Of a DNA stretch of 64,000 bases, positions 1 to 64,000 are shown piece by piece; position 1 is the stretch's first letter; each line of letters starts with the position of its first letter. The translations under genes and the position numbers were made by a program. The stretch is from Lineus longissimus (taxonomy: Eukaryota > Nemertea > Pilidiophora > Heteronemertea > Lineidae). The stretch covers positions 13,704,109-13,768,108 of the forward strand of contig NC_088325.1 in the NCBI RefSeq assembly GCF_910592395.1, read 5' to 3'. A model generated the notes under the pieces. It saw only the letters and a program-made list of their open reading frames with translations. It was not told where the DNA came from and searched no databases.

Positions 1-583
1 TTCCACTCTGCACAGGGTGGAGTGGATCCTCAATGTGGATTCTCAACAGACCCCGACTCCCAGGTGCAGGTATCAGATTTACTGGAACAGGCCCTGATGG
101 CGCCTCATCTGGAGGTATGAATGAATCAGCGCTTGTTGATGAACTTGGATGCCCAACAGAGCCAGCAGCAGGTTCTGTTTTGATCTTCGTGTCACCGTGC
201 AAAGCCCAACCAACTTCGCTATCCCCAGTCTTTATTTTCAACTCTGTTTCACTACTGCAATCCGTTGCATGATTCTGCATCTGAGTCTCATGAATCTCAC
301 TTGCTGTGTGATCAGCCGGCTCCATTTTATGAATGTTTGAACCGAACTGAGCACCATAGTCCAGCCCTGTTTTAATGTTTGAACTGAACTTATCACAAGA
401 ATCCAGCTCTGACTCTGTTTCAATCTTTGGATGGAAATGATCACCAGAATCCACAGAAAGATGTTGTTGTGATGGCTCAACCTTTACAGGAGTCAGTTCT
501 TTGGGATCTGACTTGACACCACCTGGGGACAAATTCAGATCCCCGACCTCAAACACGTCATGACTAACGGGTTTGTTACTCAT
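1..583 (-). CDS. 5' coding exon of a second zinc-finger unit (partial, runs off left edge)
   Basis: An open frame reads from an ATG at 583 to the window edge, about 194 residues, with an in-frame TGA four codons upstream of the ATG. The product is acidic and Ser/Thr-rich. It contains repeated Lys-centred motifs of the SUMO type (VKVE, IKTE). Its last residues (NLIPAPGSRGLLR, then IEDPLHPV) match the end of the exon at 13628-14278 almost residue for residue (NLIPAAGNQGLLR, VEDPLHPV), so the two are paralogous 5' exons. The splice donor and the zinc-finger exons it would serve must lie left of the window. No known domain is recognised. It is probably the regulatory N-terminus of a C2H2 transcription factor; that role is inferred from its paralogue. 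Confidence 0.75.
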   Translation of the reverse strand, partial: MSNKPVSHDVFEVGDLNLSPGGVKSDPKELTPVKVEPSQQHLSVDSGDHFHPKIETESELDSCDKFSSNIKTGLDYGAQFGSNIHKMEPADHTASEIHETQMQNHATDCSSETELKIKTGDSEVGWALHGDTKIKTEPAAGSVGHPSSSTSADSFIPPDEAPSGPVPVNLIPAPGSRGLLRIHIEDPLHPVQSG

Positions 584-1844: not shown

Positions 1845-3091
1845 CTAATGATGAATGTTACGTCTGTGAGTGTAAAGGTTACTCTTCTGTGTGAATGTTT
1901 TGTCACACTGGTCACAGGAAAATGGTCTTTCTCCTGTATGAATACGTTTATGCTGATTCAAATGAATATTCTGCGTGAATGTTTTATCACACTGGTCACA
2001 GGCAAATGGTCTTTCTCCTGTATGAATACGCCTATGACGAGCGAGACCAGTACTCTCAGAAAACGTTTTACCACACTGGTCACAGGCAAGCACATGCATA
2101 TTTTCCCTAGTATGGATTTTGCGATGTTTATTAAGGTTACTACCAGAGGTGAATGAACTACTACACTTGTCACAACTAAATACAGGTCTTTCTACAGAAT
2201 GTGTTCTTTTATGATCATGGAGTGCACAGCTTCGCTTAAAAGTTTTATCACATTGGTCGCACGCAAATGGCCTTGCATCGGAATGAACAGTGCGTTTATG
2301 TACAGAGAGGTACTCTTTCCACTTGAATGTCTGATCACACAGATCGCAGGCAAATGGTCTCTCCACTGAATGAGTTAGCTTGTGTTGATTAAGGGCACTT
2401 CCCCTAGTGAACGACTCCTCACATCGATCACACTTATATGGTTTCTCTCCAGTATGAATAAGTTTATGCCGGGCAAGGTCAGTATGGCATGTGAAAGACT
2501 TATGACACCAGTCACAATGAAATGGTCTTTCTCCTGTATGAATACGTTTGTGCCTGATAAGATCAGCATTGCATGTAAACGCTTTGTCACATTCGTCACA
2601 TTTATAGGGCCTTTCACCTGAATGAATACGTCTATGTTGAGTGAGACCAGATTGCTGTTTGAATGATTTCTCACACTGCTCACAGGCAAATGGTTTTACA
2701 ATTGAATGAGTTTGCCTGTGCGAATGAAGGCCAGAGCTCTGCTTAAAAGTTTTATTGCACTGGTCACAGGCGAACAAGCTTTCTCCTGTATGAATAAGCT
2801 TATGATTGGACAGATGACTGCTCTGTTTGAAGGATTTACCACACTGATCACAAATAAATGGCTTTTTCATTGAATGCTTTCGCATGTGGTCCCTCAGTTG
2901 GCCACTATTCTTGAATATTTCATCACACAGGTCACATGGGAATGACCTTTCCATTCTTTCAAGCATTGCAACTGCACCACGCTTATTCTGGAGGGCTGAT
3001 GTAGATTTGTTCAACGGCTGATGGACTTCTTTCATGGATCTTTTCGCAGGTCTTCGAGCCTCGATTACACAACGACTGTCAACAGATGAAA
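1845..3091 (-). CDS. C2H2 zinc-finger array exon 1 (13 fingers)
   Basis: This terminal coding exon begins after TTTTGCAG at 3092 and ends at the stop at 1845, about 415 residues. A linker opening VSSVDSRCVIEARRP is followed by 13 C2H2 fingers, all with both Cys and both His. The first two joints are irregular, then most are TGERPF-type linkers, as in DNA-binding polydactyl factors. Finger cores differ most at the helix positions that contact bases. It is the array farthest from the 5' exon and has its own AATAAA at 1802-1807. By family, the product should be a nuclear sequence-specific DNA-binding protein. No orthologue can be named and its targets are unknown. An open frame extends upstream across the acceptor but has no ATG. 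Confidence 0.85.
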
Positions 3092-3388
3092 CTGCAAAAT
3101 ACAACAAGAGAACTGATCAATTCAAGAAATAGTTTTCACAGTGAAGTAGTGTCACAAGCATACCCTGGTATACAGGAAGGAGGAACTGTCCAGTTACGTC
3201 CTGCGTTATTTGCGTGGAACAAGCGCACATCTTGAAGCTGCTTGTGAATAGCCTAGTCCTGCCAATGTTGTTTTTTCACACCGTATCAATTTTTGAAATA
3301 AATGAAATAGAAAGCATATCACTCCACTGCTTCTGTTGTTTTAAAGTGGAATAAAATAAAATCTAGCATTTTCATTGTGCTTACCCCT

Positions 3389-4452
3389 TTAAGAGGAAAT
3401 GTACCCGTTAAAAGAACATATATTTTTATGTCGATCCAAGTGGCTTCTTTGTCTGAAAGCTTTCTTACAAGTGTCGCAGTGGTAAGGCTTGACCCCTTCA
3501 TGGATTCGGTAATGCTGAGTAAGAACCGATTTTTTACGGAAAGTTTTATCACACTGGTTGCAAGCAAATGGTCTTTCTCCTGTGTGAATATGTTTATGTC
3601 TCTTTAGATCACTATTCAACACGTACGTTTTGTCGCACTGATCACATGCAAATGGTCTTTCTCCAGTATGGATACGCTTATGCTGAAGGAAGTTGCCAAT
3701 GAGGGGGAATACTTTATCACACTGGTCACAAGAATATAGTCCTTCTCCCGAATGAATACGCTTATGTGCACCAAGGGTATAACTATGTTGAAATGATTTA
3801 TCACACTGGTCACACACAAATGGTCTTTCTCTTGTGTGAACTTGCTTCTGTTGGTTAAGATTACCTCCAGGATGAAATGTCACGTCAGACACATTCAGTG
3901 TTTCTCGAATATGAATTTTGCTATGCTGATTTAGACAACGCCTCTGTGAGAATGTTTTATCACACTGATCACATTCAAACCGATTTCCCTTAGCATGAAC
4001 AGCTTCATGGTTGTGAAGACTACTTTTATGTGAGAAAGTTTTCTCGCACTGAGCACAGGCAAATGGTTTTTCTCCCGTGTGTGTACGCATATGCTCAGAG
4101 AGAGCACAACTCTGTGCGAATGCTTTATCACACCAGTCACATTTAAATGCTTTTTGGGCTTTTTCTCCTAAATGAACCATACGTTTGTGCCTGTAGAGAG
4201 TACCTCTCTGTGTGAATGTTTTATCGCACTCGTCACAAGCAAACAGTCTTGGTCCTAAATGACTTCGTCTATGTGTCGTAAGATCACGACTCCAGGTGAA
4301 TACTTCGTCACACAGATCACAGACATATGGCCCCTGCTTTGTATGAATACGTAACTCAGGGAGTGCAGAAGTAGGAGAGGTTGGTGAAGCCTGGTGGAGT
4401 CCTTGAACGGGTCTTGAAGGCTTGATTTTGTGATGTTGGTCGAGAGGTGATA
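3389..4452 (-). CDS. C2H2 zinc-finger array exon 2 (10 fingers plus one broken)
   Basis: The exon starts after TTTTGCAG at 4453 in phase 1 and stops at 3389, about 354 residues. It opens VSPLDQHHKIKPSRP, the same linker family as the other arrays. Ten fingers keep their zinc ligands. Between fingers 5 and 6 one unit (LNVSDVTFHPGGNLNQQ) has lost both Cys and the first His, leaving a spacer of finger length. The last finger ends H-x3-C in place of H-x3-H, still a possible zinc ligand set. The frame upstream of the acceptor is open but looks intronic. It is predicted to act as a DNA-binding module of the shared locus; the broken unit may divide it into two binding blocks. Confidence 0.83.
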
Positions 4453-4694
4453 CTGCAAAATACAACAAGAAGACTGTGTGATAATTTCGTGTAGAAACAA
4501 TCCTACATTGTTTTATTCTCATCATATTTAATGGCACAACTAACAAACTAGAAAAATATCTTGGCATCTGGTTATGATTTGAGAAACATATATAATACAA
4601 GGTTTAATCCGGGAGCACGGAGGGGCAGACGTGAGCGAGGCCACTCATTTCACATACATTGTAATAACCCACTGGCAAATGTTACACTTTTTCC

Positions 4695-5986
4695 TCAATG
4701 AAACTTCAGTTTATGCGTATTGAGATTACTTCTCTGAGCGAATGTTTTGTCACACTGGTCACATGCAAATGGTCTTTCTCCAGTATGAATACGCTTATGC
4801 TGTCTAAGATTACCAGAATATGCAAATGCTTTCTCACACTGGTCACAAGGAAATGGTTTTTCTCCACTATGAATACGTTTATGCTGAGTGAGGCCACTAC
4901 TCTGATTGAAAGTTTTATCGCACTGGTCACAGACAAATTGTCTTTCTCCTGAATGGATAAGTTTATGCTGTTTCAGATGACTGATCTGAGCGAATGCTTT
5001 ATCACACTCATCACAGGCATGAAGTCTTTCTCCGGAGTGAAGACGATGATGCAAATTAAGGGTAGAACTTTGCTGAAATGTTTCACCACACTGGTCACAG
5101 ATGAAAGGCCGCTCTCCTGTATGAATACGCTTATGTTGGTTCAGGTTACCCCTTAAATGAAATCTTTTATCACACTGGTCGCAGGCAAACGGTCTTTCTC
5201 CTGTATGAGTCTGTTTATGTTGCTTAAGATGAGAAATCTGGGTAAAATTTTTATCACACTGGTCACAGGCAAATGGTCTTTCTCCTGTATGAGTAAGGCG
5301 GTGGTTATGAAGACTTCGTCTAAGTGTGAAAGTCTTTTCACACTGATCACATGCAAATGGTAGTTTTCCTGTACGAGTATGTTTATGCTCAGAGAGAGCA
5401 TAACTTTGCACAAAAGCTTTGTTACACTGATCATCTTTCAATGTTTTTTCTCGTAAATGAACCATCAGTTTATGCCGAGAGAGAGATCCACTCTGCTTGA
5501 ACGTATACTCGCACTGGTCGCAAGCGAATGGTCGCGGTCCTAAATGAGTCTGCTTTTGTTTTTTAAGTCTACTCGATATGAATGTTTTATCACACTGGTC
5601 GCAAGCAAGCGCTTTTTCTCCAGTATGAATAAGTACATGCTGATGTAGATCACTACGTTTTGGGAATTTCTCATCACACTGGTCACATTGAAATGATCGT
5701 TCTTCTGTAGGAAGACCAGGCTGATGCTGATAGATGGTCGACCGGATAAGTGTAAGTGTTTTACTGCACTGGTCACAGGCAGGAGGCCCACCTTCCGACT
5801 GAACAGGATTTTGCAGCCCTAGCGAAATGCAAAAAGTAGTGCAGGACTTATTACACTGGTAACATCTGTAGGTCTTTTTCGTAGCAAAGCCTTTCTGGGT
5901 TGTGGTCGAAGGATTAAGTGAAGACTGCTGGAATTCTTTTGCGGGTTGTAAAGTGTTGATTTCACCACTGCAGCCAAGGGATAATA
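4695..5986 (-). CDS. C2H2 zinc-finger array exon 3 (10 intact fingers, several degenerate)
   Basis: The exon starts at 5986 after TTTTGCAG and stops at 4695, about 430 residues. The opening linker (VLSLGCSGEINTLQPAKEF) leads into two eroded units that keep a CxxC but lack a proper His pair. Ten intact fingers follow, with two more damaged ones among them: KTFISSRLKKQKQTH has lost its first His, and KDDQCNKAF its first Cys. The C-terminal run of eight fingers is regular, with TGERPF linkers. The exon remains fully open despite these losses, which suggests it is still translated. Function is inferred from the family only: DNA binding in the nucleus. Confidence 0.83.
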
Positions 5987-6244
5987 CTGCAAAATACAAC
6001 ATTGAAGAGGACGAATGAGTTATAATTTCATGTATTGATGTGCACAAAATTTACGAGGGTCTGCCGGATGAGACTTAAAGCTGTGGTCCCTTGTACCTGA
6101 AAGTCTACACCAGGGCAAGTAAAAGATCCGAACAGCCTGACAGACAACCACTTTGAGTTGAAATATTCCGACATCTTCCTGAAGACGGCAGGGAGTTCCA
6201 CATGAGTTTGCAAACTTTTTGATTTCTTGTGCAGTAGAGGACAT

Positions 6245-6380
6245 CTTGAGTAGAGGACAAGTGCTGTCCTTAATAGAGAGGTGTCCTCATTAGAGACGTC
6301 AAATTGAATGGCAACAACCATTAATGAACCAAACGAGTGTTCTTGATAGAGAGGGTGTCCTTATTAGAGAGGTATAATAT
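6245..6380 (+). repeat. MITE fragment, family of 26625 and 41356
   Basis: It shares blocks such as GTCCTTAATAGAGAGGTGTCC, cut here to the core TAATAGAGAGGTGTCC, and the internal TCAAATTGAATGG with the copies at 26625-26840 and 41356-41517. The left terminal inverted repeat is missing or eroded. It lies in the intron just upstream of array exon 3. Confidence 0.6.
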
Positions 6381-6442
6381 CTACCAATGGCAGTTCAACT
6401 GGAGTAGCAAAAATAACAACTTTAAAGTTTAATTTCATTTTG

Positions 6443-6448
6443 TTTATT
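6443..6448 (-). terminator. poly(A) signal after array exon 4
   Basis: AATAAA on the minus strand, about 130 nt past the stop of array 4 at 6576. It is a second array exon with its own probable cleavage site, as expected for alternative terminal exons. Confidence 0.45.
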
Positions 6449-6575
6449 CAAAAACGACACTTCAGATAAAGTACATACACATTCATGATATCAACTCACT
6501 CCAAATCAAAATGACCAACTCATTTTACATCAGAAATTCTCCATTTACAGCGACAACAAAACTGACTGCCAAATG

Positions 6576-7780
6576 TTACGTATTTCTGCCTGAATGACAA
6601 TTTAGTTTGTGCTGATTAAGATTACTCCTGAGTGTGAATGTTTTATCACACTGGTCACAGGCAAATGGTCTTTCTCCAGTGTGAATTTTTCTATGCTGAT
6701 TGAGATTGCTACTTTGTGTGAATGCTTTATCACACTGGTCACAGGCAAATGGTCTTTCTCCTGTGTGAATACGTTTATGCTGAGTCAAATGTCTACTCTT
6801 TGTGTAGGTTTTATCACACTGGTCACAGGCAAATTGTCTTTTTTTTGTATGGAAAAGTTGATGCTTTTCGAGATATTGACTCAATTCAAATGTTTTATGA
6901 CACTGATTACAACAATAACGCTCTTCCCCCGAATGAAGACGCTTATGTGTATTAAGGGCATAACGCTGCTGAAATGTTTCACCACACTGGTCACAGGCAA
7001 ATGGTCTTTCTCCTGTATGAATACGCTTATGTTTGTTAAGATAACTGCGTAGTTGATATGTTTTATCACACTGATCACATGCATATGGTCTTTCTCCTGT
7101 GTGAATGAGTTTATGCTGTTTAAGATAGCTCTTGAATAAAAATCTCTTATCACACTGGTCACAGGCAAATGGTTTTTCTCCAGTGTGTGCGAGTCTATGT
7201 TTTTGAAGACTACTTTTATGTGCAAAGGTTTTCTCACACTGGTCACAGGCAAATTGCTTTTCATCTGTATGAGTGTTCATATGTCTTAGGAGACAAGAAC
7301 CTGTGGAGAAGGCTTTATCACATCTATCACATTCAAATGCTTTCTCTCTTAAATGAACCATACATTTATGGCGAGTGAGAGTACCACTCTGAGTGAAGCA
7401 TTTTTCACACTGGTCACAAGCAAATGGTTTTTCTCCAGTATGAACAAGTTTATGTTGCACAAGAATACTTCGCTGTATGAATGTTTTATCGCACTTGTCA
7501 CAGGCAAATTTTTCTCCTGAATGCATCAGTTTGATATGTTGGATAAGATCAGGGCGTCTCCTGAATGTTTCTACACACTGATCACAGGCAAAGGGCGAGT
7601 TGGAGCATTGAGTACATTGGTAACACCTTTGTCCGGCATAGGGCACAATTAGTTTACCACACTGGTCACATTTGTGGGACATTTTAACATTAACTTCCTC
7701 GCCAGATGTTTCCAAAGCATGAACACGTCCTGGCAGTAGTTCTGAAATCTTGATTTCATCCCTGTGGTCAATGGACAGAA
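6576..7780 (-). CDS. C2H2 zinc-finger array exon 4 (12 fingers plus a CxxC knuckle)
   Basis: The exon starts at 7780 after TTTTGCAG in phase 1 and stops at 6576, about 401 residues. The linker (VLSIDHRDEIKISELLPG) is followed by a Cys cluster, KCDQCGKLIV then CYQCTQC, which has three CxxC pairs and no His and may be a zinc knuckle made from decayed fingers. Twelve intact C2H2 fingers follow, mostly with TGEKPF or TGERPF linkers. The spacing between fingers 1 and 2 is short by a few residues (HSGEKFACDK). The acceptor here is preceded by TTTTTG rather than the CTTGTTG seen in arrays 1, 2, 5 and 6. A DNA-binding role is inferred from the family. Confidence 0.85.
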
Positions 7781-7865
7781 CTGCAAAATACAAAAAGGGG
7801 ACTATCAATTGTACTTTAAACCATTAGATTGTATGAATGCTGTGTTTGCACCGACAGATTCCACT

Positions 7866-7985
7866 ACGTGTACATGTAGTGTGCACATGTACACATGTAG
7901 TGTGCACATGTACACATGTAGTGTGCACATGTACACATGTAGTGTGTACATGTAGTGTGTACATGTAGTATGTACATGTACTTCT
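7866..7985. repeat. short tandem repeat ACATGTAGTGTGCACATGTAC
   Basis: About 120 bp built of alternating ACATGTAGTGTGCACATGT blocks. Each block contains palindromes (GTGCAC, ACATGT), so both strands are self-complementary and can form cruciforms or hairpins. It lies in the intron just upstream of array exon 4 and has no coding content. Confidence 0.85.
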
Positions 7986-8039
7986 AGGATGTTTCGCTAC
8001 ATACATTTACAGGCAAGCAGACTTTCTTCTGTTTGAAAA

Positions 8040-8289
8040 TTCAACAAGAGAAGGGAAACATCCATAAGCACCTTAAAAGCTTTATTACACTAGTCACGTT
8101 CTAATGTTTTTCTCTTGTATGAGTTCATTTATGCAAAGAAAATGCACCTCTCAGTGTAGAGACTTTATCACATTCAAAACTGAACTGACTGCCAAAGTTT
8201 GCAATGCTTTCCTATGGATTCATGAATTGGTGATGATTGAAACAACTTTTATCTTTGACTGCCTTATCACACGCATCACAAGCAAATGG
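8040..8289 (-). pseudogene. decayed zinc-finger units downstream of array exon 5
   Basis: Past the array 5 stop, the minus strand still shows finger-like pieces. Examples are the complement of TTATTACACTAGTCACG near 8080 and an almost complete finger start near 8262-8290. Frameshifts and lost Cys codons break the frame. Array 5 was once longer, and a premature stop now ends it. Confidence 0.6.
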
Positions 8290-9587
8290 TCATTCTCCGT
8301 TATGAATCCGTTTATGCTTCCTTAGACCATTACTCTGCCTGAATGACTTATCACACTGGTCACAGACAAATGGTCTTTCTCCTGTATGAGTTCGTTTATG
8401 CTCACTGAGGTGACTATTCTGAATAAATTTTTTATCACATTCATCACAGGCGAATGGTCTTTCTCTAGTATGAATCAGTTTATGATGCACAAGATCACTT
8501 TCACTCTTGAACGTTTTTACACACTGGTCACAGGCAAATGGTCTATCTTCGGTATGAATCCGTTTATGCTTATTTAGACCATTACTCTGCCTGAATGACT
8601 TATCACACTGGTCACAGGCAAATGGTTTTTCTCCAGTATGAATCAGCTTATGCTCGCCGAGGTGACTTTTCTGAGTAAATTTTTTATCACAGTCACCACA
8701 GGCAAATGGTCTTTCTCCAGTATGAATCCGTTTATGATGCATAAGTTCACTACCTCTCATGAACGTTTTAACACACTGGTCACAGGCAAATGGTTTTTCT
8801 CCAGTATGAATCACTTTATGATGCAGAAGATCACAACCTCTCTTGAATGTTTTTACACACTGGTCACAGGCAAATGGTCTTTCTCCAGTATGATTCAGTT
8901 TGTGATTTACAAGAGCACGACCTCTCTTGAATTTTTTATCACACTGGTCACAGGCAAATGGTCTTTCTCCTGTATGAACACCCTTGTGGCTAATGAGAGA
9001 ACCCCTTCCTGTGAAAGTTTTATCGCACTGGTCACAAGCAAATGGTCTTTCTCCTGTATGAATACGCTTATGCTGGTTAAGAGTACTAGACTGTCTGAAT
9101 ACTTTATCGCACTGGTCGCATTTAAAAGGGTTTTCTCCAGTATGAATACGCTTATGTTGATTGAGAGTGCCATGCTGGGTGAATGCTTTATCACACTGGT
9201 CACAGGCAAATGGTCTTTCCCCTGTATGAATACGTCTATGCATTTTGAGATGATCAAGCTTGGAGCATACTCTACCACACTGGTCACAAGTATAAGATTT
9301 TCCTCCTGAATGAATCTGATCGATGTGTCGCTGAAGATACCTCCTGTTCTTGAATACTTTTTTACACTGGTCACATTTAAATGTTTTTTCTCCAGTATGA
9401 ATACGTTTGCGTTGCCCGAGATCAGATAAACTTGCACAAGATTTATTACGCTGGTGACTTCTACGGGACTTGATAACCTTCACATTCCTTGGCCGCGTTG
9501 AGACGGTCACTGATCGTTTCAAAGATGGATGGGGTCGTGTGGTTGGTCTTTGAGAATCAATTTCACCACTGTGGTAGAAAGATGAAG
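8290..9587 (-). CDS. C2H2 zinc-finger array exon 5 (13 fingers)
   Basis: The exon starts at 9587 after TTTTGCAG in phase 1 and stops at 8290, about 432 residues. The opening linker ASSFYHSGEIDSQRPTTRP leads into a basic stretch (RPRNVKVIKSRRSHQR) that could serve as a nuclear localisation signal. Thirteen intact fingers follow with very regular TGERPF linkers. Fingers 8-10 and 11-13 are copies of one three-finger block (KTF...LxHH; KKF.Q.SHLxEH; KSFRQSNGLxKH), 252 bp apart. The stop falls right after the last His-linker (HKRIHNGE), and decayed fingers continue beyond it. Function by family is DNA binding; targets are unknown. Confidence 0.86.
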
Positions 9588-9889
9588 CTGCAAAATACAA
9601 CAAGATAACTGGTTCAGGAAAGTCGACCCACAACAAACATAGTTGAGATAAGTGCTCACACACTCGAGTCCACTTCCGAAATTTCATCATATATCAGCAA
9701 GAAGTCACATTTCTGGGGATAAACAGTAATTTTTCAGCTGCACATTTATGATGAGAAGTTGCCATTGCAACGCTTCAAGAAAAAAGATAAGATGAAAGTA
9801 CTCCTTTAGTTCAAACTAGAGGCAGACCTGTGGTTTATTTACAAAGAAAATACTACACTACATGAACATCCTTGTGTTTTGCAAGTTTA

Positions 9890-10183
9890 CATGAAGAACT
9901 TTATGACTGATCTATCACACGGGTCACAGAGAAATGGTCTTTCTCCTGTTTCGATAAGTTTAGGCCAGGAAGGGCACATCTCTATGTGAATGCTTATCAT
10001 ACATGTACTGGTCAGAGAGAAATGATCTTTTTAGTATGAATCTAATTAGGCCTATGCAGATACTGAGTGTATCTTGTATCACACTGGTCACAGCCAAATT
10101 TTTCTTCTCCAGAATTAACCTCTTGCTTATAAAGACCACAACTCTGTGTGATTTAGTATGACTATCTAGTAACAATCCCATGG
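9890..10183 (-). pseudogene. decayed zinc-finger units downstream of array exon 6
   Basis: The plus strand shows the finger signature in eroded form (TCACACGGGTCACAGAGAAA near 9915, TCACACTGGTCACAGCCAAA near 10079) with broken spacing and frame. These are remains of at least three fingers past the array 6 stop at 10184. Confidence 0.6.
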
Positions 10184-11568
10184 TCACTTTTCTTTATGAA
10201 TCTTTCGTTTATGATGATAGAGGCCACTTCTCTGTGTGAATGTATTATCACACATATCACAGGCATAAGGTCTTTCCCCCATATGAATCAGTTTGTGCTG
10301 ACTGAGTGTCGTACTCAGTGTGAATACTTTATCGCACTGATCACAGGCAAATGGTCTTACACCAGTGTGAAGACGCTTATGACAATTGAGATCACCTCTG
10401 CACCTGAATGTTCTATCACACTGGTCACAAGCAAATGGTTTTTCTCCTGTGTGAATCATTTTATGCTGATGCAGTCCACTACGCTGTGTGAATGTCTTAT
10501 CGCACTGGTCACAGGCAAATTGTTTTTCTCCCGAATGAATCAGTCTGTGCCGGGTAAGTTCTCCGCATCTCTTGAACGTTTTGTCACACTGGTCACAGGC
10601 AAATTGTTTTTCTCCTAGATGAATGAATCGCTTGTGCTGATTCACATCATTACTGCGTTTGAATGTTTTATCACACTGATCACAGGCATACGGTCGCTCT
10701 CCTGTATGAACAAGTTTATGCGCCTTCAGGTTATTAAGCTTGGCGAAATGATTATCACACTGGTCACAAGCATACGGTCTTTCACCGGTATGAAGATGTT
10801 TGTGTTGCGCAAGATTAAATGAAGTGGTGAATGATTTATCACACTGGTCACAGGTGAATGGTCTTTCTCCTGTATGAGTAAGCATATGTCGGTCAAGACT
10901 GCCACTTGCTGAGAATGTTTTAGGACACTGGTCACATGCAAATGGTTTCTCTCCCGTATGAATACGTCTATGTCGATTGAGAGAACTATTTGTTGTGAAT
11001 GTTTTGTCACACTCGACGCAGGCAAATGGCCTTTCTCCAGTATGAGTACGCTTGTGTTCCACAAGATTAGATGAAGTTATAAACGATTTATCACACTGGT
11101 CACATGCGAATGGTCTTCCTCCTGTATGAATAGGTTTGTGTTCGGCAAGATCAGATGAAGTGATGAATTGGAACTGGTTGCAGGCAAAAGGTATTTCTCC
11201 CGCATGGATTTGTTTGTGTTCTTTAAGATTAGAAGAAGTTATAAATGATTTATCACACTGGTTACATGCAAATGGTTTATCTGTTGTATGGATACGTTTA
11301 TGCCGATTGAGACCATTATTTGTTGTGAATGCTTTATCACACTGGTCACAGGCAAAAGGTGTCTCCCCCGTATGAATACGCTTGTGTCCTTCAAGGTTTG
11401 ATGAACTAATAAATGCCTGATCACACTGCTCACATTTGTAGCGTAAAGACTTGTTGATCTTCACATTCTCCCGGGATGCTGTAACAGTCGTTGAACTTTC
11501 GAAAGTCTGATGTGGACGTGTGAATGGTCTTGGAGCCATGTTTTCAGCACTGTAGTCCAAAGATAAAG
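10184..11568 (-). CDS. C2H2 zinc-finger array exon 6 (14 fingers plus one broken)
   Basis: The exon starts at 11568 after TTTTGCAG in phase 1 and stops at 10184, about 461 residues. The opening linker [19 protein letters not shown] resembles that of array 5, including a shared R.NVK basic patch. Fifteen finger units follow. Fourteen are intact. The fourth ([14 protein letters not shown]) has a 2-residue deletion that removes its second Cys. Several neighbouring units share the ITSS core, pointing to recent local duplication. It is the intact array nearest the 5' exon and so the default partner if splicing is sequential. The open frame also runs upstream through the acceptor but only with intronic sequence. 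Confidence 0.86.
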
Positions 11569-11690
11569 CTGCAAAATACAACAAGAAAACAAGTTCTTGA
11601 AAAAATACTGCAACGAAGAATTTAGAGAGATTCACATGCCTATGTCCGCTTCTGAAATCTGATTTGATCAAATGGCCTGGTTCCATGTGG

Positions 11691-12170
11691 TCATCTGTTG
11701 TCAGTGACAGGTGTAAGATCACAACTTCTCCTGAATGTTTTATCACACTGGTCACAGGCATAGGGTCTTTCATGGGTATGTAGACGTTTATGACGCACGA
11801 GACTGCCACTCTGCGTGAAACTTTTATCGCACTGGTCACAGGCAAATTGTCTATCTCCAAAATGAATCAGTTCATGTCGCATAAGATCACAACTGCTCCT
11901 GGACGTTTTCTTACACTGATCACAGACAAATGGTCTTTCACCAGTATGAAGAAGCTTGTGACGACTGAGATCACCACTCCATGTGAATGTTTTATCGCAC
12001 TCGTCACAGGCAAATGATCTCTCTCCTGAATGAACCCGCTTATGTTGACTCAGATTGCTAACAGTCTTGAAAACTTTTACCCACTGGTCACAGGCATAAG
12101 ATTTTTCTCTTGAATGTGCCGGTGTTGAAATTGTACATTTGATTTGGTCGAGTGGTAATAGATCAAAGCC
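11691..12170 (-). pseudogene. dead seventh zinc-finger array
   Basis: A short run of five finger units is open here, but three defects suggest it is dead. The first finger has Trp in place of its second Cys (CDQW). The last finger stops after its first half (RRSCDL, then TPVTDNR). The usual TTTTGCAG acceptor is gone: the segment LPLDQIKCTISTP matches the array 2 opening SPLDQHHKIKPSRP, yet the bases before it read CTTTGATC rather than TTTTGCAG. Three fingers are fully intact. It could still be used through a cryptic acceptor, but the common phase is not available at the nearest AG. Confidence 0.65.
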
Positions 12171-12230
12171 ATTGCTTTCAACAGACGTCTCCAGTTTCTC
12201 CATTTTGTCAACACTGATGATACCTCTCAC

Positions 12231-13418
12231 ATAATCCTATCTTCACAGGCCCGTCAAATCACATTAATTTGTTGATACAGAACACACTTAGTAAGAGCTA
12301 ACTAGTTTTTGAACTCCAGGATAAGTAATAGCATCACACTCTTGCTGAAAATAATTTGAAACTGCCTTTTCTCATTGAAAGTAAAGAGTTTGGCATCAAC
12401 TGCTGTAGTTGTCATCCGACTTCTCAGTTTAACCCTTGTCTGTCCTGAAACCTTCCAGTAGAACTCAGCTGAGCTGCTCAATTTTTTGCGATGTATTATA
12501 GAAAAGTCTCAATCATTACATTGAGTGAAGCTAAATTTATTTTGTGATTTGTGAGTGCGAGCAAACCCAAATAGCTTTCAGGTTTGAGTGATTACATAAC
12601 TCAACGCCTTCACTCCCTTTGACTTGCGAGGACTTGAACATGTCTAAAGAGAGATTGATATTAAATCCTGTTTGGCTACCTATTTATTTGTTATTTCTAT
12701 TGAAAGTGAATTATATTAGGCAATGTCAAATTCTTCCTTTGAATTGGAACAAATCCTTGAGTCAGAACTTTCTCCTGAAATATGAAGGCTGAAAATAATC
12801 CTGAAATTTGAAATATACAGACGTACAAACAAACAAAATGGTCTTGGATAAATGTAGGTCAAGCACATTTATGTGGATACAAATGTCACCACAGCCTCTT
12901 AGCACTAACTATTTCCTCCTAAAAGGTAGGCCTTGTATCAGTATATTCCTGGCAAATCAGCACACCAACAGTACACGGAAGGTATTTTTGTATGGAACAT
13001 CACATATCACCGATAGCTTATTTTATTGTAAGTGTAATCAAAAACCAATTCGGTACGTACACATGGAAATTGAACAAGAACAAGGGCAGATCCCTTAACA
13101 AAGTGTTCTGCACTCACTCATTTGGGGTAAACTGTAAAAAATATCTCAATAAAAACTGATTTGCCAGGGTAATTTATATACTAGCACAGAGGCAAACTGC
13201 TGATGCCCACCTGACAGCTTGTCCCGGTCGTTCAAAACAAGATATGTCACTAACTTGGTCTTATAACTTGAACTTGGCATTTAAAACTCCTTCAGGAAAG
13301 TGCATCCCCTCCCCTAACTAGACTTACAGGGCACATCGATCTGACAATGATGCCACATTTGTCAGATGGACAGAATCAGATTTTACCTGCGCAGCAGAAT
13401 GCTTTCAAAGAGACTTAC
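12231..13418. other. intronic DNA between the microexon and the dead array
   Basis: No coding exon was found on either strand in this roughly 1.2-kb AT-rich stretch. One element stands out: 13220-13262 resembles the terminal inverted repeat of the foldback element at 35321-35784 (CCCGGTCGTTCAAAACAAG). Confidence 0.4.
13220..13262 (+). repeat. solo terminal repeat of the 35.3-kb foldback family
   Basis: CCCGGTCGTTCAAAACAAG followed by TGTCAC and AACTTGGT matches the reverse complement of the right end of the element at 35321-35784. Only one end is present, so this is a relic. Confidence 0.5.
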
Positions 13419-13446
13419 CAGTATCATCTTCATCTTCCATATTCTG
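13419..13446 (-). CDS. acidic microexon with tandem NAGNAG acceptor
   Basis: Between CCAG (13450-13447) and the donor GTAAGT (13418 down) lie 28 nt coding QNMEDEDDT plus one base. The acceptor is CCAGCAG, so the second AG would give a 25-nt form lacking the Gln. Both forms start in phase 0 and end in phase 1. That is what is needed to join the 5' exon (phase 0 end) to any of the array exons (phase 1 start). The joined codon becomes GTT, GTA or GCT, never a stop. The match of phase at both sides is the main evidence that this tiny exon is real. Confidence 0.65.
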
Positions 13447-13627
13447 CTGGAATGATAGAAATAGCAAAGATATATGTAAGAAACAAGGCTTTTGAAATTA
13501 TGGGCTAGATGCTACTGGGTACCACAAATCAGAAAGTCAATGATAGATGCTGTATATACAGGGTGTGCCGTGGTTGGAGGAGGAGGCCTATTGCTTAATT
13601 TATTTATGAAAAGCTTATCATACTTAC

Positions 13628-14278
13628 ATCATCTGCATCTGCGCCTTCACCAAAACCATATGAGCTCTCCTCCATGTCTTCTTCAAGAGGCTCCTCTTTT
13701 ACGACTCCGCTTGGTACAGGATGGAGCGGGTCTTCAACGTCAATTCTCAACAGACCCTGGTTCCCAGCTGCTGGTATAAGGTTAAGTGGAACCGGGCCCA
13801 GCTCATTTTCAGCTCCATCCCACTGCTCGGATCCTGAACCCGCCAGTGCATAACCAGGCTCAAGTCCAAAGTCATCGGTTGGTTCAAATTTGATCTTTAC
13901 TTTATTCGATCCGGGAACTGGAAGATCATATTCCGACTCATTGACCTTGGTCTCACTGTCACTCCCCACAGGATCATAGAGCTCCGTTTTTATATTTGAA
14001 CTGAACTGATCACCGGAGTCCAGCTCAGTTTTAATGTTTGAACTGAACTGATCACTGGAGTCAACCTCAGTTTTAATGTTTGAACTGAATTGATCACCAT
14101 AGTCAACATCAGAAGGGTGTGGCTCTGAAGAATCATTCCAATCAGGAGTTATTCCATCCTGGTCGGCCTTAATAGCATTAACCGAGAATTCAAACTCATC
14201 ACTGCTTTCATGCAGGCCAGGACTCAAACTTTCCAACTTCACAGACATATCACTGTTAGTGTTGTTCCATTCGGACAT
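13628..14278 (-). CDS. common 5' coding exon of the zinc-finger locus, SUMO-motif-rich
   Basis: ATG at 14278 with an in-frame TGA two codons upstream; the exon acceptor (TATTTTGCAG) is at 14323-14326, so a 5' UTR exon lies further up. The coding part is 217 residues and ends at GAT before GTAAGTATG (donor at 13627). The protein is acidic and has no known domain. It carries six psi-K-x-E motifs, at about K14, K69, K83, K97, K130 and K194. Three of them sit in a 14-residue module (DQFSSNIKTE) repeated in tandem at residues 62-101. Such motifs in transcription factors commonly recruit SUMO and repressors. That role is inferred. The exon is paralogous to the one at 1-583. It has no zinc fingers of its own and must be spliced onward. 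Confidence 0.72.
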
Positions 14279-14322
14279 CGCTCACTGTCACAACTTCCAC
14301 AAGGGACCAGGGTTTCAGACAC

Positions 14323-15264
14323 CTGCAAAATAAGACATATTTGATTAGGAATTCAAAGTATTCCAAGAAACACAAGAACAATTGGCTAAATGAGATGAGA
14401 TGTTCTCTCCAAAATCGACCAAAGTTTGTGAGGGACTGAGTTTCGTCCGAAAATAGATAACTGTTTACACACAATGTCAATACAATATGAATATAGGTCA
14501 ACGGGTCATTGTCGGACGTCAGTTCGCCAAGAAAATCAAAGGAATTGAAGGATTCATTGAACTCATCAACACATCATTAGGCCCTACTAGTTTTCAGGGA
14601 TGTTCAACTGCATTCCTAGATAAATCACTTTGGTATGTAGAGAGTAAGATAACAATCAAAGGGACACTGTATTCAATTCTAAAACGAGCTAAGCTGCGCC
14701 ATCTTATTATTGTTCGATTATGAATAGCGCGAGTAAGCGCCAGGCCGAAGTGAGCGACCCTGCGAGCGGGTTACTTGGACATAAAATGGCCACCGCAAGT
14801 GACCTTTGAGAAAAGATGGCAAACGATCCTGTAAATACCGGCTTTACGAAATACACGAAATGTGTTTATTGCATCAGACTGCACTTTTTTGGCCTAAGTA
14901 GAATAGCTTTTGGAAGGAATTGATATTTAGATGTGAAAAAAATTTCAATAAGATTAGTGAGTCGTTTTTTGTAGTTAACGCACATCCGGTAGTGAGTCTG
15001 GTCATTCTTTTTTACGCTACTTTACCCGGGCTGCAAATTAGTGTGCGTTCGATTACGCGTTCTCGTGATGTTGACCCACATACGTATCGAGTACGTTGCA
15101 GGTCAAATGTCTATGCTGCCACCTTTTAGCGTTAATAACTCCGATGTGTGTACATCGAGGATGTAACAATTCGCGGGTCAAGATGGTGGCAAAAACTGAG
15201 ACTACCTTTTAGGCCTACATGTTTTAGCCATTTACATTCAATAAGATAAGGAAACAGCGCTAAG
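14323..15264. promoter_or_regulatory. candidate divergent promoter between zinc-finger locus and GPR89
   Basis: The two genes are divergent with start codons about 1 kb apart. The stretch 14725-14830 is relatively CpG-rich. It holds two YY1-like motifs (AAAATGGCCACC, AAAGATGGCAAAC), and a third (AAGATGGTGGC) lies near 15181. No TATA box is evident. Start sites cannot be placed from the sequence. The remainder shows no coding exon. Confidence 0.35.
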
Positions 15265-23900: not shown

Positions 23901-26900
23901 ATGACAGTCGAGCAGTCTCTTTTTCCGACAAACTATCCGCAGGTATACCGCTGATCTATGAAACGGTTGCAGTAAACACACCGATAATATTATTCAGAAT
24001 ATATCAGTGCTCAAATTGGCTAAGTTTGAAGTGGTGTGATTGCGTAGATTTGCCCCAAATCACATTGATCTGAACATTGCGTGTTCCATTTTGGAGGTCT
24101 TTCCTGACCCTTCTGTGTGCTCCTGTACATTTTTGCATGGCCATGGCCGGGATGCATGTGGAGTGTGGTCAAGACGTTCAATATTTTCGCCTTCATCTTT
24201 TCCTTTCAGCGTTCTGTGAACTTGATTTGTCTTTGTTGCGTGTTTGTTTCCTAGATTACTATGTTAAGTCTGATTCACAAATTAATTCGTCATCTAAGAC
24301 TTTAGTCTTATCTTTCATCATGTTCACACTTCTTCACATCATTTTCCGAATCGGAGACTGAATAGTGACTCTCCAGAGACGCAGAGAGAGTGAAGAATGG
24401 GAAGGCGTCTCATTCTTCAGACTTCACTCTGACTCTAGTCAGCCTGGATTTCATCAGGATCCAGGACATGCCATACATCTGTTAGTGTTACACTACAGTT
24501 GATACTGATACTGATACTGATAGTCTTCAGATTGTCTTTCAGTTTCCATTTAACCAGAGCTCAAACAAATCAAATCAATGCACACACTCAGTCTCTGAAC
24601 AGAAGGCCTCGGCTAAATCTGACAATGCCATCAGGTGTGACTCTTTGTGTAAGTTGTAAGAGATGACTGGTCATCTTCCAAATAAGCGTTGTCAACATTT
24701 GTGACGTCTATTGCGGTCTATTGTGAATTACTGTAGTTATATTTTTCAGCCGCAGCAGCGTGGTGTCAGTGAGGAAACAATATATGCCAACATCAAGGAA
24801 GTGACAGGGATTTCAGATCAGCATGTGATCACCGAGGCTATCAAAGCCTGTCAGAATAACGAGGGGACATTTGAACTTCAAGATGTCGTAGATCATCTTC
24901 TGAACCCTCCAATGTGCAAAAATGAGAAAGCGGTAAGTCAATTGTTGATACTAATAACCCATTAACCCAAGACCCATGGATTCAATTGATTGCCGAAAAC
25001 GTTCACCAACACGCCACCATGCTTTAGTGTCTCGCCATTGGTGCCAACTAAGAATCCCTGTCCCTTGTTTCCAGGTTGCTCCTGTAGCAACCCATTCAGT
25101 TGGGACAGATGCCCTGCCAGCCAACAGACCAGCTCAGAGCGTACAAAGTGTGATCGATCTCACCAATGACAGTGGCGATGGTGACGAGCTCCAGCGGGCA
25201 ATCGCTGCCAGTCTCCAGGACTCGCAAGGAGGACTCATCTTGGGAGGACAGATCTCTCGTGAGGATCAGGATATAAGCAGGTGTGTTGGCGTCAGGGATG
25301 TTTCAGTTGGCATCACAACAAAGAACATATCTTGCAATGTTCGTGTAAAGTTAGTTAGCAGAGGCTGTGATAGACCATTGGTTTATGGGGAGGAACAAAG
25401 CATCGTGATCCATTCCGACCATTGATCTGTGAGTACGAACTTTGGGTATGCCTCATGAATCGTTTCAAGCTCGGAGGTAGATGTTGGCGATGGTGGTCTT
25501 CGTGACTCACTAACAAAAGAAGTGGTAGTCTATTGCTACTGGTTAAGAAGTTCAGGCCATCCCTAATACTGTCCAGTTGGGGATTGATTCATCAAATTCT
25601 CTTTTGCAGAATACTTGAGGCTAGTCTACTGGAAGAAAATGGTAAAGCAGGCACGAAACGAAAGAGGGGTGACATCTGGTTCGTTGACCCTCTGAATCCT
25701 CACGAAAGGAAGAGGACGGAAAACTGGCCTGTTGGTCTGAAGAATGTTGGGAATACTTGCTGGTTTAGCGCTGTCATACAGGTGAGAAACAGGAAAAATG
25801 CTTTGTTCTTTTGGTGAGACTGCTAAATTAATCTACAGTTAGAATCTGAGGCCATCATAGATATGATTCTGATGCGGCAGTAACACTAAACCAAGCCTAG
25901 TAAAACACAAAGATATATCAGACTGCTTAAAATTCTCAGCTGTTTTATACTTGACTGCATGGTACTTTTGATTTGAAGAATTTGCTCTGATTCAAAACCG
26001 AATTATTTTGTTTTCAGAGTTTATTCCATCTTCCCAAGTTTCGTCGATTGGTCCTTGGTTTTGTCCCGCCAAGTGGAGCCACAGAGGAGAATGCATTGGT
26101 AGGTGGAGTATACCGGAAACATGGCAAGACTGTCATGATCAGATAAAAACAATAAAAGCAATTTTATTTGCTGTTAAGTTGATGACAAATAGTATTCAAC
26201 ATTGAATACTTGTGTCAACAGTGAGAGACTACATATACATGCAGGTCTCAAACATGAATACCGAATAGTAGCAGTTCTTAATTAGCCCTGGTTTCTATTT
26301 TGGGTATATGTCATTGCAGTCTACTTTTGAAGTTTTCTGATTATAAAAGTTAACGATTTTTCGAATTCTAGCAACAGCGAAACCTGATATTCATGCAGGA
26401 GCTACGCCGTCTCTTTGCATTAATGATCGGTTCACGGAAGAAATATGTCGATCCGTCTCGTGCCGTGGAGATCTTGAAGGAGGCATTTACGGCGGCCAAC
26501 GGCAACGGTATCGCTGATAACCAACAAGATGTTAGCGAGTTTCAACATAAACTCCTCGACTGGTTAGAGGATGCTTTCAAACAGGACTGTTCGCGACCGA
26601 CATCTCCTGCTACACCAGAGTAAGTACTGTGGAACCTCCCTTAGCGGACACCTCTCTATTAAGGACAGCCTCTCTATTAAGGACAGCCTCTCTATTAAGG
26701 ACAGCCTCTCTATTAAGGACACTAGTTTTGTCTCAAATTGGTTGTTTCCATTCAATTTGACCTCTCTAATCAGGAGACCTCTCTACTAAGGACAGCACTT
26801 GTCAGTCACGAGGGTGTCCTTAATAGAGCGATTCTACTGTTCTGAGAAGTCAGCAATAATAATGTCATGGTTGTCAATTTGTCAATTTGTCTCATTGCGG

Positions 26901-29900
26901 TACCGTCTCAAAAAAGAAATTGTATCCTTCACTTGTTTGTGTTGTTTGCAGGACTCCTGATGACCTGTCAAGAGATAACCCGATGGTTGAACTATTTTAT
27001 GGCCAGTACAAGGCCGAGGGGACAAATGAAGGGAAGACGTTTACAAACAAGGAAACGTTTGGGCAGTTTCCGCTGCAAGTCAACGGTTTCCACGACATTC
27101 ATGAGAGTCTGGAGGCGGCAATGGCCGCTGGAGAGATAGAGACTGTTAGTAATGATACGTCATTAAAGTCAGGGCAAGAGGTGAGTTGGTAAATCAGACA
27201 TCTGCTGGACTTGGTCTCTGATGAGACTGGAGCTTATTCTTGATTCCATGCTGGTTAATCGCGGTTTACTCTCCATCTATACATTCTTCCCGAAATTGGT
27301 GGCTTGCATTGGAACTAACTTTTTCCCCCTTGTCTGTCATTAAAGGCATTCAAGTGTGTTGGTCAACCATGACTATCTCCTTTGTCCCTCCACCATAAGG
27401 CCTAGTTCCCCCTATGACATCACTATTTCGGACACTCAGCGCCGTATTTCTGGAAAGGTGTATAGTTTGTAGGGATGGCTCTATAATCGCTCATAAACAA
27501 AAGAAGTCAGTATAACCAAGAATATTCCAGATACAACTAGCCTATTATCTTTTGCATTGAGAAATGATCAACCCAAATGATCGTACTAATCATTGCCGCT
27601 TGTATCTTTCAGCAATGGTTTACACGGTTACCGTCAATGTTGACGTTTGAATTACTACGATTTCAATTCAATCAACAATTAGGACGACCTGAAAAAATTC
27701 ATAACAAATTAGCATTTCCTGAAGTCATTTATATGGATAGGTGGGTACAGTTTAAGTTCTATCAGTTTGCAGATAAAAGGTTGTTAGCTGTTTGATGTCT
27801 TCTCCGATTGCCATGTCACACACTTCATTGCAGAGCAAATTTGTTTCACCCTGAAGTTTATCGGACAAGGCTGCACCAGATCATGGGATTGAATTGACGT
27901 TTGTATCTCTGCCGAGGTCTGCTGTGGTGCTAGTTCATGTAGCCTGTCCCTTGCGGGGGTCATTATAGTAGGCCTACCCTATTGATCAGCATTTGAATTG
28001 TGAGGATTTTAGAATAGATTGATGCACAATCATGTTAAAAAAGTGACATTTTGAAAACACTTTCTCTTCAGGTATATGGAGTGTAATAAAGACACTACAA
28101 GGTTACGACGGGAGGAGGTTAAGAAACTAAAAGAGGAGTTGGTTCAGTTACAAACAAAACTAGACAAGTAAGTGATTATTCCCACTCCTGATGGGGGGGG
28201 GCACGTTCCATTTTCTCTCGCAGTAAGCCACCTCCAAGTGCTGAGCGTATGCTGAAGAAGAAGAAAAAGTTAAATCTTGAATCTTGTCCTTATCAAATAC
28301 CAAGTTCTGTGGCCAACATCATATGTGTTTTTCTCATCGTTTTCAGATTTATGAGTTACGGGTCTGGGACGAAACGATTTCCTCTGCAAGATGTGTTACA
28401 ATATGCGCTGGAATTCGCCGAGACACAACCTCCAACTTCATTGTGTTCAGATGTGGAGATGGAGTCACCTTGTAATTCAAAGTAAGTCGGAGTTTACAAA
28501 GAGGAATGAGGGTTGGCAGTTTCATTGGACTAGTTCAGAGAATCTGGAAACCTCGCTAGCTCAATACTTGACTTGCCAAACTCAGCTCGACGCCGAACTG
28601 CAGCGCCACTCGCGGACAAAGATAAAACAACTCGACATTTTTTTCACCGGTTTTCTCGCTGCGCATGCGTACCAGCGTCATCTTTTGTTGATTTCCGCTG
28701 GTACGCATGCGCAGCGAGAAAACCGGTGAAAAAAATGTCGAGTTGTTCTATCTTTGTCCGCGAGTGGCGCTGCAGTTCGGCGTCGAGCTGAGTTTGGCAA
28801 GTCAAGTATTGGTAGAGCATTGGGCCGACAATCTAAAGATCTGTGGTTCAAATCCCATCCAGAAAATCTGATTTTGCTGCATCTCTGATATTCTATTTCA
28901 GTATGCATGTAGAATCTCCAGACTCTGCTCCGCTAAAAGACTGTGAAGAGAACATGTCCATAGGAACTCCGAGTAGTAGTCAGTTGCCCGCCTCCCCAAA
29001 TAGAAACTCCTCGTCTGGAATCTCCACGTCACCGGCACCGCGACATGTGACCGGCGAAGAGCTCCATGTGTTACGGGAATGTATGAAACGGTGGCGAACC
29101 GAAGTGGAAAATGATGTGAAAGGTATTTACTGGCGAGAGATGTCGCATTTAATCTCATTCAATACTCACCATTTTGTTGTACCAAGTGAGAATCTTTGGG
29201 TCGATGTCTTTCAAAATACAAAGTTGAACAGCTCAGCGCTTCTGAATTTTGAGGACCAGGGTTGTTATGTGTGCCTTCTGATATTCTGATGGTGTGTCCT
29301 GTAAGTGAGTCAATTGTCACCATCTTGTTACAAGGACACAAGTTGTAATTTTGTTGTGAATGTTTGGGAACGCCTTCTGAGTGGTTCTGAGCTATATTGG
29401 CATGTGGTAGTTCTGTGGTTGGCTACCAGGTGCATGATGTAAGAATTTCTCTCTCGCTTCAGAATTACAAGATGGTATAAGTCAGTTAGAAAGTGCTGTA
29501 AATAGTATGTATGGTGATGAAGAAATGAAAAAAGTGAGTGGAGTTTTATTTTATTCGGTGCTCTCGCAGATATAAAGTGATTGGAGGATGTCTTTGATTC
29601 TGGACATAACAGTTAAGGAACAGCCTGTACTCGGGTGTGCGTTGAGATCATTGGAGTTACAAAGGTCACTAGACATAAAAACCGTTGTTGTGTTGGAGTG
29701 GCACTGGTGCAATGATGTTCTCCTGTACCTCCTGTGGGTTATTGGTGAGCAGTGTGACCTGGGGCTTACATGTAAGTCTGCACTGGCAATCTCAATTGGA
29801 ATATGGTCTTAATATTTACTGTGAAATCCACCAGCAACAGCTCTAACTCAACGATACGGCAAGTTATCTGTAACCTAATGATTTGTCTTTTGTTTCAGTT

Positions 29901-41517: not shown

Positions 41518-42577
41518 CATTTAACAGTAGAAAAAACTTTATTCAAACAATGTACTTGAAGTTGTTAGTGTCTTCAAATGTCATCTCAATGACATGTGGA
41601 TTTTGAAATTTACTTTACATATATCTAAAAAATGACCTTAAGTCATGATAAACTCTAGTTGTCTGTGAAATTTGAAATTTTTTGGGTAATTTCCAAAATG
41701 ATGAAATGGCCATCGATATTTTTGTAAACCATCTATTCAACCCTCTGTGAATAAGTATGGTGTTTTCCAATGGGAATGATTTTTGCAGAAGTGGTTTCAT
41801 TTTCGGTGAGGTTTTGTTAGTCATTGTCTAAACATAAACTTTAGTTTTTCCATTGCATAATATTGCCAAAGCATTCTTGACTAACTTGAGATTGCTTGGT
41901 CGGCCTTATCAAATTTATCAATTGTCTGAAGTTGCTAAAGGTCAAGTGCATTTTCACTCGGTCATTACTGCACTGACAATTCATGAAATGATATTGAAAG
42001 GCCTATTCCTGGTGAACATGTTCCTATTATTTCGTTAATGTATCTTATTTCGTTCCTGGGCCTTTGCTGGGAAATGCTATGTCTGGTTATAAATATTGCA
42101 GGTCAATATTGTGATTACCTTGGTACAAAAAACACTTCTTTTTATAGTGTTGCAGGACGACTTGTCGAGCATGTTCTATTTTCGGAAGTCTTTGTGTAAA
42201 ACACTTGGCACTCTATCAATTTAGATTGAGCGGTGATGAAATAGAAAAGTTCATAGTCCACAGTCATATTGATTGAAGCACAAACAATAACAATGATAAC
42301 TACCAAGTAGGATAAGAGTAAAGAACTGTTCTAACTGCCATTCAAGTAGGGTGGAGCTCAACAATACCATACCATGAAGGTCACTCAATCTTTACTTTCA
42401 TGCATAGTAATTTGGCTACATAAAACACAATGCCTACTGAAGATCTTTCGTTTGATAAAGGCTAAAGTATGGAATTTTTGAAAGCATTGACCAAGATCTA
42501 TCACCTTTTGCAGAAGTTTTCTCATCTGATTTCGTTGTTTTCACTTTTCTCTTTGCAGATGGTCTCAAACGTAGGCA

Positions 42578-64000
<21,423 letters not shown>

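Follow-up and report, generated by a model that had tools for sequence, protein, structure and literature searches.

The 64,000-nt window that we analysed in the genome of the nemertean Lineus longissimus (C19:13704109-13768108; the genome searched comprises 391 Mb in 30 contigs) contains, on its minus strand, a C2H2 zinc-finger locus, here called unit A, which is very probably a single gene with alternative terminal exons, its shared 5′ part being joined to one of six zinc-finger arrays. The first-pass annotation of this DNA had proposed one 5′ coding exon and one microexon ahead of six array exons, and this layout was confirmed, as were the array starts at 11568, 9587, 7780, 5986, 4452 and 3091. 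The shared coding exon 1 (13628-14278) encodes 217 amino acids (aa) and ends in a GTAAGT donor in phase 0. The microexon (13419-13443) has 25 nt in the NCBI model and a phase-1 GTAAGT donor; a 28-nt version (13419-13446) is also possible if the first AG of its CAGCAG acceptor is used. The arrays follow in the order A1 (10184-11568, 14 strict C2H2 fingers), A2 (8290-9587, 13 strict fingers), A3 (6576-7780, 12 strict fingers), A4 (4695-5986, 10 intact fingers and degenerate ones, used in NCBI isoform X5), A5 (3389-4452, nine fingers and one degenerate) and A6 (1845-3091, 13 strict fingers), with gaps of 596, 509, 589, 242 and 297 bp between them.

All six reading frames are open, over 353-460 codons. 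They had been described as intact arrays of 10-14 fingers, which is correct as far as the open frames are concerned, but the strict counts run from 9 to 14, and both A4 and A5 include degenerate fingers. The inventory of six arrays with an acceptor stands as well, though a truncated seventh array frame has to be added. This frame, A0 (11691-12236, minus strand), is situated in the intron before A1 and has three strict fingers, a first finger broken by a Cys-to-Trp change, and no TATTTTGCAG acceptor; judging by these features, A0 is probably dead. Decayed finger-like sequence is also present between the unit A arrays, and the A2-A3 gap carries a 21-bp tandem repeat with GTGCAC and ACATGT steps (7868-7986).

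The acceptors of A1 to A6 all read TATTTTGCAG and all open their exons in phase 1, fitting the donor of the microexon, and the junction codons (GCT, GCT, GTT, GTA, GTA and GTT, respectively) are of the GTT, GTA or GCT type, as had been claimed for them. Over all pairs of unit A arrays, identity is 96% at positions -16 to 0, and then falls to 44% at -30 to -16, 27% at -60 to -30 and 25% beyond, so that the intron past -30 shows chance-level identity only, while the first 60 exon bases are 51-61% identical between pairs. Of the stretches compared, the acceptor is thus the most strongly conserved, which is unexpected for neutral tandem copies and suggests selection on the acceptors. The TATTTTGCAG sequence occurs eight times in the window against 0.26 expected, namely at the six arrays, at the 5′ acceptor of exon 1 (14323-14332, minus strand) and once at 63231; the acceptor of this start-codon exon, a sequence match, implies a non-coding exon further upstream. 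A longer 16-mer, TTGTTGTATTTTGCAG, allowing up to two mismatches, is found in the window at the six arrays only (0.11 expected). Genome-wide, a 20-mer taken from the acceptors has five exact matches, all of them array acceptors of the gene family that shares exon 1, and five further matches with one mismatch, four of which are such acceptors; at up to three mismatches the signal becomes diffuse (433 matches versus 202 for the reversed pattern). Across the units of this family, phase 1 is found in 27 of the 27 array exons with a resolved acceptor. Unit A thus has common 5′ coding exons ahead of several same-phase terminal exons, which is the arrangement of lola-type genes, and its terminal exons are homologous neighbours with matching phase and splice sites, as tandemly duplicated exons are. 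A docking or selector sequence defined by plain complementarity to the acceptor core was looked for at 14400-11700 and discarded, as the best candidate paired at 11 of 18 positions versus a mean of 11.7 (maximum 14) in 30 base-shuffles; this check covers simple complementarity only, with other RNA structures outside its scope.

The residues that would determine DNA recognition differ extensively between the arrays. There are 62 distinct quadruplets at helix positions -1, 2, 3 and 6 among the 71 fingers of the unit A arrays, and no pair of arrays shares two consecutive quadruplets. In the 58 regular fingers, entropy is greatest at five sites, namely helix positions 5, 3, -1 and 6 plus the residue preceding -1. 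Two of the five, helix position 5 and the residue just ahead of -1, do not count among the classical DNA contacts, and entropy is lower at position 2, so that the variability pattern seems to match the contact residues only partly.

How the arrays are used can be followed in eight NCBI products (P0001-P0008), which are predicted gene models and which we mapped to the genome. A protein search with exon 1 found P0001, 'zinc finger protein ZFP2-like isoform X5 [Lineus longissimus]', which corresponds letter for letter to exon 1, the 25-nt microexon and A4; A1, A2 and A3 are therefore skipped in this product, and its isoform number suggests that unit A has at least five products. Some 0.2 Mb from unit A, at the sister locus unit D (C19:13.508M), isoforms X3, X2 and X1 (P0006, P0007 and P0008) have both 5′ exons in common (13507714-13508364 and 13508657-13508719 of C19), but each terminates in an array of its own, starting at 13510483, 13512567 and 13516436 of C19, respectively; P0008 was mapped up to residue 426, the remainder being outside the sequence stretch compared. 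Products with a common 5′ part and different zinc-finger ends are thus found at unit D, and one product is found at unit A. Elsewhere in the family, P0005 (unit C, isoform X7) contains the third of five arrays, P0002 (unit G, 12.38 Mb) the second of two, and P0004 (unit J, contig C1) the second of three. Altogether, six of the eight products (P0001, P0002 and P0004-P0007) could be mapped completely and contain one array each, and P0008 likewise has one array as far as it was mapped. The remaining one, P0003 (isoform X2, unit G), has part of array 1 joined to array 2 via an internal GGTAAG donor (C19:12384378-12384593).

The interpretation of the locus as one gene with alternative terminal exons is supported by these models, since P0001 skips three arrays, X1-X3 differ in their ends at unit D, and arrays other than the first are used at units C, G and J. 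According to this interpretation, the transcript would begin upstream of 14.3 kb and run across the arrays, and its 5′ exons would encode the effector half, which is acidic and has many SUMO-acceptor-like motifs. Splicing would then join the microexon, through its phase-1 donor, to one of the six near-identical acceptors, and the selected array would provide both the DNA-binding half and the stop codon. We infer, further, that all six arrays are used, that they depend on a single promoter and on cis splicing, and that each of them would have different DNA targets.

Several observations nevertheless weigh against this interpretation. The NCBI models stand as predictions, and the support for array use that they give is thus of a predicted kind. 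When the pre-finger parts of the six arrays were compared with public proteins of 341-1086 aa, P0001 alone was recovered, and the protein collection yielded none of the further unit A isoforms to which the number X5 points. The composite P0003 means that array choice is not always exclusive. The ratio of nonsynonymous to synonymous substitution rates (dN/dS) is 0.24-0.46 among the unit A arrays, but the truncated A0 gives similar values against them (0.22-0.42 where computable, A6 excluded), so that dN/dS cannot tell live arrays from dead ones, and we have dropped it as proof of present-day constraint on each array. There is neither AATAAA nor ATTAAA between A5 and the next acceptor. Finally, no CpG-rich block precedes the 5′ exon of unit C, which has five arrays, in a scan of 34 kb covering units A-C (C19:13688000-13722000; 413 windows of 300 bp, counted as CpG-rich from the 95th percentile of CpG count upwards).

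Some of these observations would also fit a situation in which one or a few arrays are used, that is A4 and perhaps its neighbours, the others being ageing duplicates that are becoming relics like A0. That A4 is the sole match among the public proteins, that the first intron holds a truncated array, that decayed finger-like sequence is present, that A4 and A5 have broken fingers, and that dN/dS does not discriminate would all agree with this explanation. We still find it unlikely, because the six frames have remained open and their acceptors 96% identical, because NCBI numbers the A4 product X5, and because three arrays are used at the sister locus.

Another explanation is that each array has its own promoter and transcript, to which separately made 5′ exons are added by trans-splicing. 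A precedent exists in Drosophila lola and mod(mdg4), according to the accessible portions of the papers on them (PMC1947980, PMC5666082), and the protein models fit cis and trans joining alike. It is the promoter and spacing data which, although indirect, make this quite unlikely. In the 34-kb scan, CpG-rich windows occur solely ahead of the 5′ exons of unit A (14792-15091) and of the adjacent unit B (1292-1591), where they are candidate promoters of these units, the former of which may be shared with a divergent neighbour gene; none is seen between arrays, so that the five unit A gaps are without a CpG-rich block. Gaps between the arrays of unit C are 113, 412, 436 and 1135 bp, and inter-array gaps as short as 113-297 bp, as found in units A and C, leave scant space in which separate 5′ genes could fit. 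The CpG and gap data are most simply explained by one transcript whose terminal exon can be chosen. As for polyadenylation signals, the first-pass annotation had noted AATAAA after two arrays, but five of the six in fact have this motif before the next acceptor (for A6, before the exon of the next unit), including 6443-6448, 127 nt past the A3 stop, and 1802-1807, 37 nt past the A6 stop (both on the minus strand); this is weak evidence, as some 2-3 would be expected from base composition by a rough hand estimate.

It is very improbable that unit A represents six independent genes, each with a short 5′ exon or an unspliced start of its own in the gaps. An in-frame ATG can indeed be found, in the intron preceding A1, A2, A4 and A5 and, for A1, A3 and A6, within the exon ahead of finger 1, but the acceptors are conserved while the sequence further upstream is random, gene models connect 5′ exons with non-first arrays at five loci (A, C, D, G and J), and no further 5′ exon between exon 1 and A6 is listed by a six-frame protein-level search of the genome. 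An argument against independent genes based on ATG codons was discarded as neutral, since every unit A array has one in frame in the intron or the exon.

The 5′ exon is not restricted to unit A. The same search found it at 11 loci with E < 1e-10 (16 places in total, five of them with E above 0.007, one being a second piece of unit I). Array counts, which are lower bounds because limited DNA around each locus was taken in, are as follows: six in unit A; one in unit B, whose 5′ coding exon (window 1-583, minus strand) runs leftwards off the window towards its array at C19:13702056-13703365; five in unit C, with its 5′ exon 4 kb past that of unit B; at least five in unit D; one in unit E (8.40 Mb); two each in units F (14.43 Mb) and G; one each in units H and I (contig C3, 9.224 and 9.222 Mb); three in unit J (4.13 Mb); and at least one, partly visible, in unit K (contig C3, 16.99 Mb). 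At least two arrays thus lie behind the 5′ exon at no fewer than 6 of the 11 loci. Units H and I may be damaged, as a stop codon is found inside the 5′ exon match of the former and inside the second piece of the latter.

It had been proposed that the whole cassette was duplicated, with the exon at 1-583 beginning a second such unit. This exon does start another unit, but it leads a single array, and it is the next one, unit C, that has five; moreover, arrays have probably multiplied inside units too. In a midpoint-rooted tree of 26 arrays (D5, which ran off the sequence, was left out, the K acceptor was unresolved, and the D1 acceptor was taken from the NCBI model), A3-A4-A5 (support 0.97), D2-D3-D4 (1.0) and C1-C2 (0.87) group together, whereas many other nodes are weak. 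These groupings point to probably three or more rounds of array multiplication in place. Between the arrays of unit D there are also four near-identical repeats of 62-65 codons, each with one finger and a stop (L035 4429-5190), which seem to have arisen by recent tandem copying of a broken piece of an array. Contig C5, in turn, has many short C2H2 frames (mostly ~90-200 aa) among the best 150 of 3920 candidates, with clusters near 5.7, 7.0, 11.4-11.6 and 22.4-22.6 Mb in that same set, and this looks like an expansion distinct from the exon-1 family.

The protein half encoded by exon 1 is acidic, with 50 D and E versus 11 K and R among its 217 residues. It contains six psi-K-x-E motifs, which we take to be SUMO-acceptor-like (putative) sites, in comparison to a shuffle mean of 0.24 (none of 5000 shuffles reached six), although this excess is partly due to the tandem repetition of a 42-bp unit. 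The block LLRIDVEDPLHP of exon 1 is invariant among four aligned units. Comparison of exon 1 with Pfam gave nothing above the cut-off, neither BTB nor KRAB, and comparison with PDB likewise gave nothing above the cut-off. A metagenome protein of 288 aa (P0009) is 33% identical to the 5′ exon of unit D and carries the block RRGLLRIDVEDPLHPVQSG; its relatedness indicates that the exon-1 family probably extends past the Lineus longissimus genome.

The parallel with Drosophila lola and mod(mdg4), drawn already in the first-pass annotation, holds inasmuch as these genes, too, have one N-terminus and alternative ends. As far as the accessible text of PMC1947980 describes it, lola has a common 5′ part and alternative C-terminal exons, most of them with zinc fingers, giving at least 20 isoforms, and is thus like unit A in having one 5′ part and alternative zinc-finger ends; however, its isoforms mostly have one or more zinc fingers, whereas the unit A alternatives are arrays of 9-14 fingers, and its splicing is both cis and trans. 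Its common part includes a BTB domain, and none was found by Pfam in exon 1 of unit A. Unit A thus works like lola, yet it is outside the lola/BTB family. Mod(mdg4) is a mainly trans-spliced BTB protein with C-termini mostly of the FLYWCH type, in contrast to the C2H2 arrays of unit A. It is comparable in that a single N-terminal part is combined with alternative 3′ exons, yielding more than 30 isoforms (accessible portions of PMC5666082). In Drosophila pip, mutually exclusive terminal exons are tandemly duplicated (PMC9013439), but the gene encodes a sulfotransferase and, in the accessible excerpts, the duplication is discussed for the 3′ UTR region, unlike the DNA-binding domain of unit A. 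The vertebrate KRAB and FiNZ families, in what could be seen of PMC5363842 and PMC10547256, combine clustered, fast-changing poly-finger arrays with an N-terminal effector. These sources describe clusters of tandemly repeated genes, whereas unit A multiplies the array exon alone behind one effector exon. The mouse paper also reports array units with KRAB sequence within 30 kb upstream, its accessible text not specifying whether one KRAB exon serves several arrays. The KRAB domain, a feature of KRAB genes, was not found in exon 1 by Pfam.

What was already known, judging from the accessible portions of these sources, are alternative zinc-finger 3′ ends (lola) and tandem mutually exclusive terminal exons (pip), and NCBI automatic annotation already contains isoforms of the present kind. 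What is new is an entire poly-finger array as the swapped unit, and the recurrence of this arrangement across one nemertean gene family. In the literature searched, which was seen in part and had subscription journals largely outside it, no account of a nemertean locus of this type was found, and the layout is not described in the accessible parts of PMC6444547, PMC1947980, PMC5666082, PMC2443715, PMC2865497, PMC10547256, PMC5363842 and PMC9013439. Poly-zinc-finger families are described as growing through whole-gene copying. If, instead, copies are made of the DNA-binding exon alone, behind one promoter and one effector, any new array would have both expression and an effector from the outset, and the arrays would be rivals for a single transcript. 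Regulatory or transposon-silencing repertoires would then be reached by another route and controlled in another way, and one gene could direct the same protein part to several DNA targets. It is tempting to go further and to suppose, tentatively and with somewhat less than even confidence, that a lineage-specific effector exon serves as a hub which gains whole arrays by terminal-exon duplication, with a regulated or cell-specific choice of each array. One nemertean would then have at least 28 arrays for DNA targeting behind about 11 5′ exons, and new specificities would arise within existing genes, not as new genes.

In the rest of the window, Rfam and tRNA scans of all 64,000 nt were empty. 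Plus-strand frames at 24958-30171, which match UCH and, below its cut-off, USP-UIM, resemble USP25/28. Those at 42575-56209, with DUF4819 and an HMG box, resemble capicua, and are followed by a Q-rich frame of 853 aa (59461-62022). A 45-bp tandem repeat at 51771-53211 (32 copies, 95% match), with open frames on both strands (511 aa on the plus and 483 aa on the minus strand), looks like a minisatellite.

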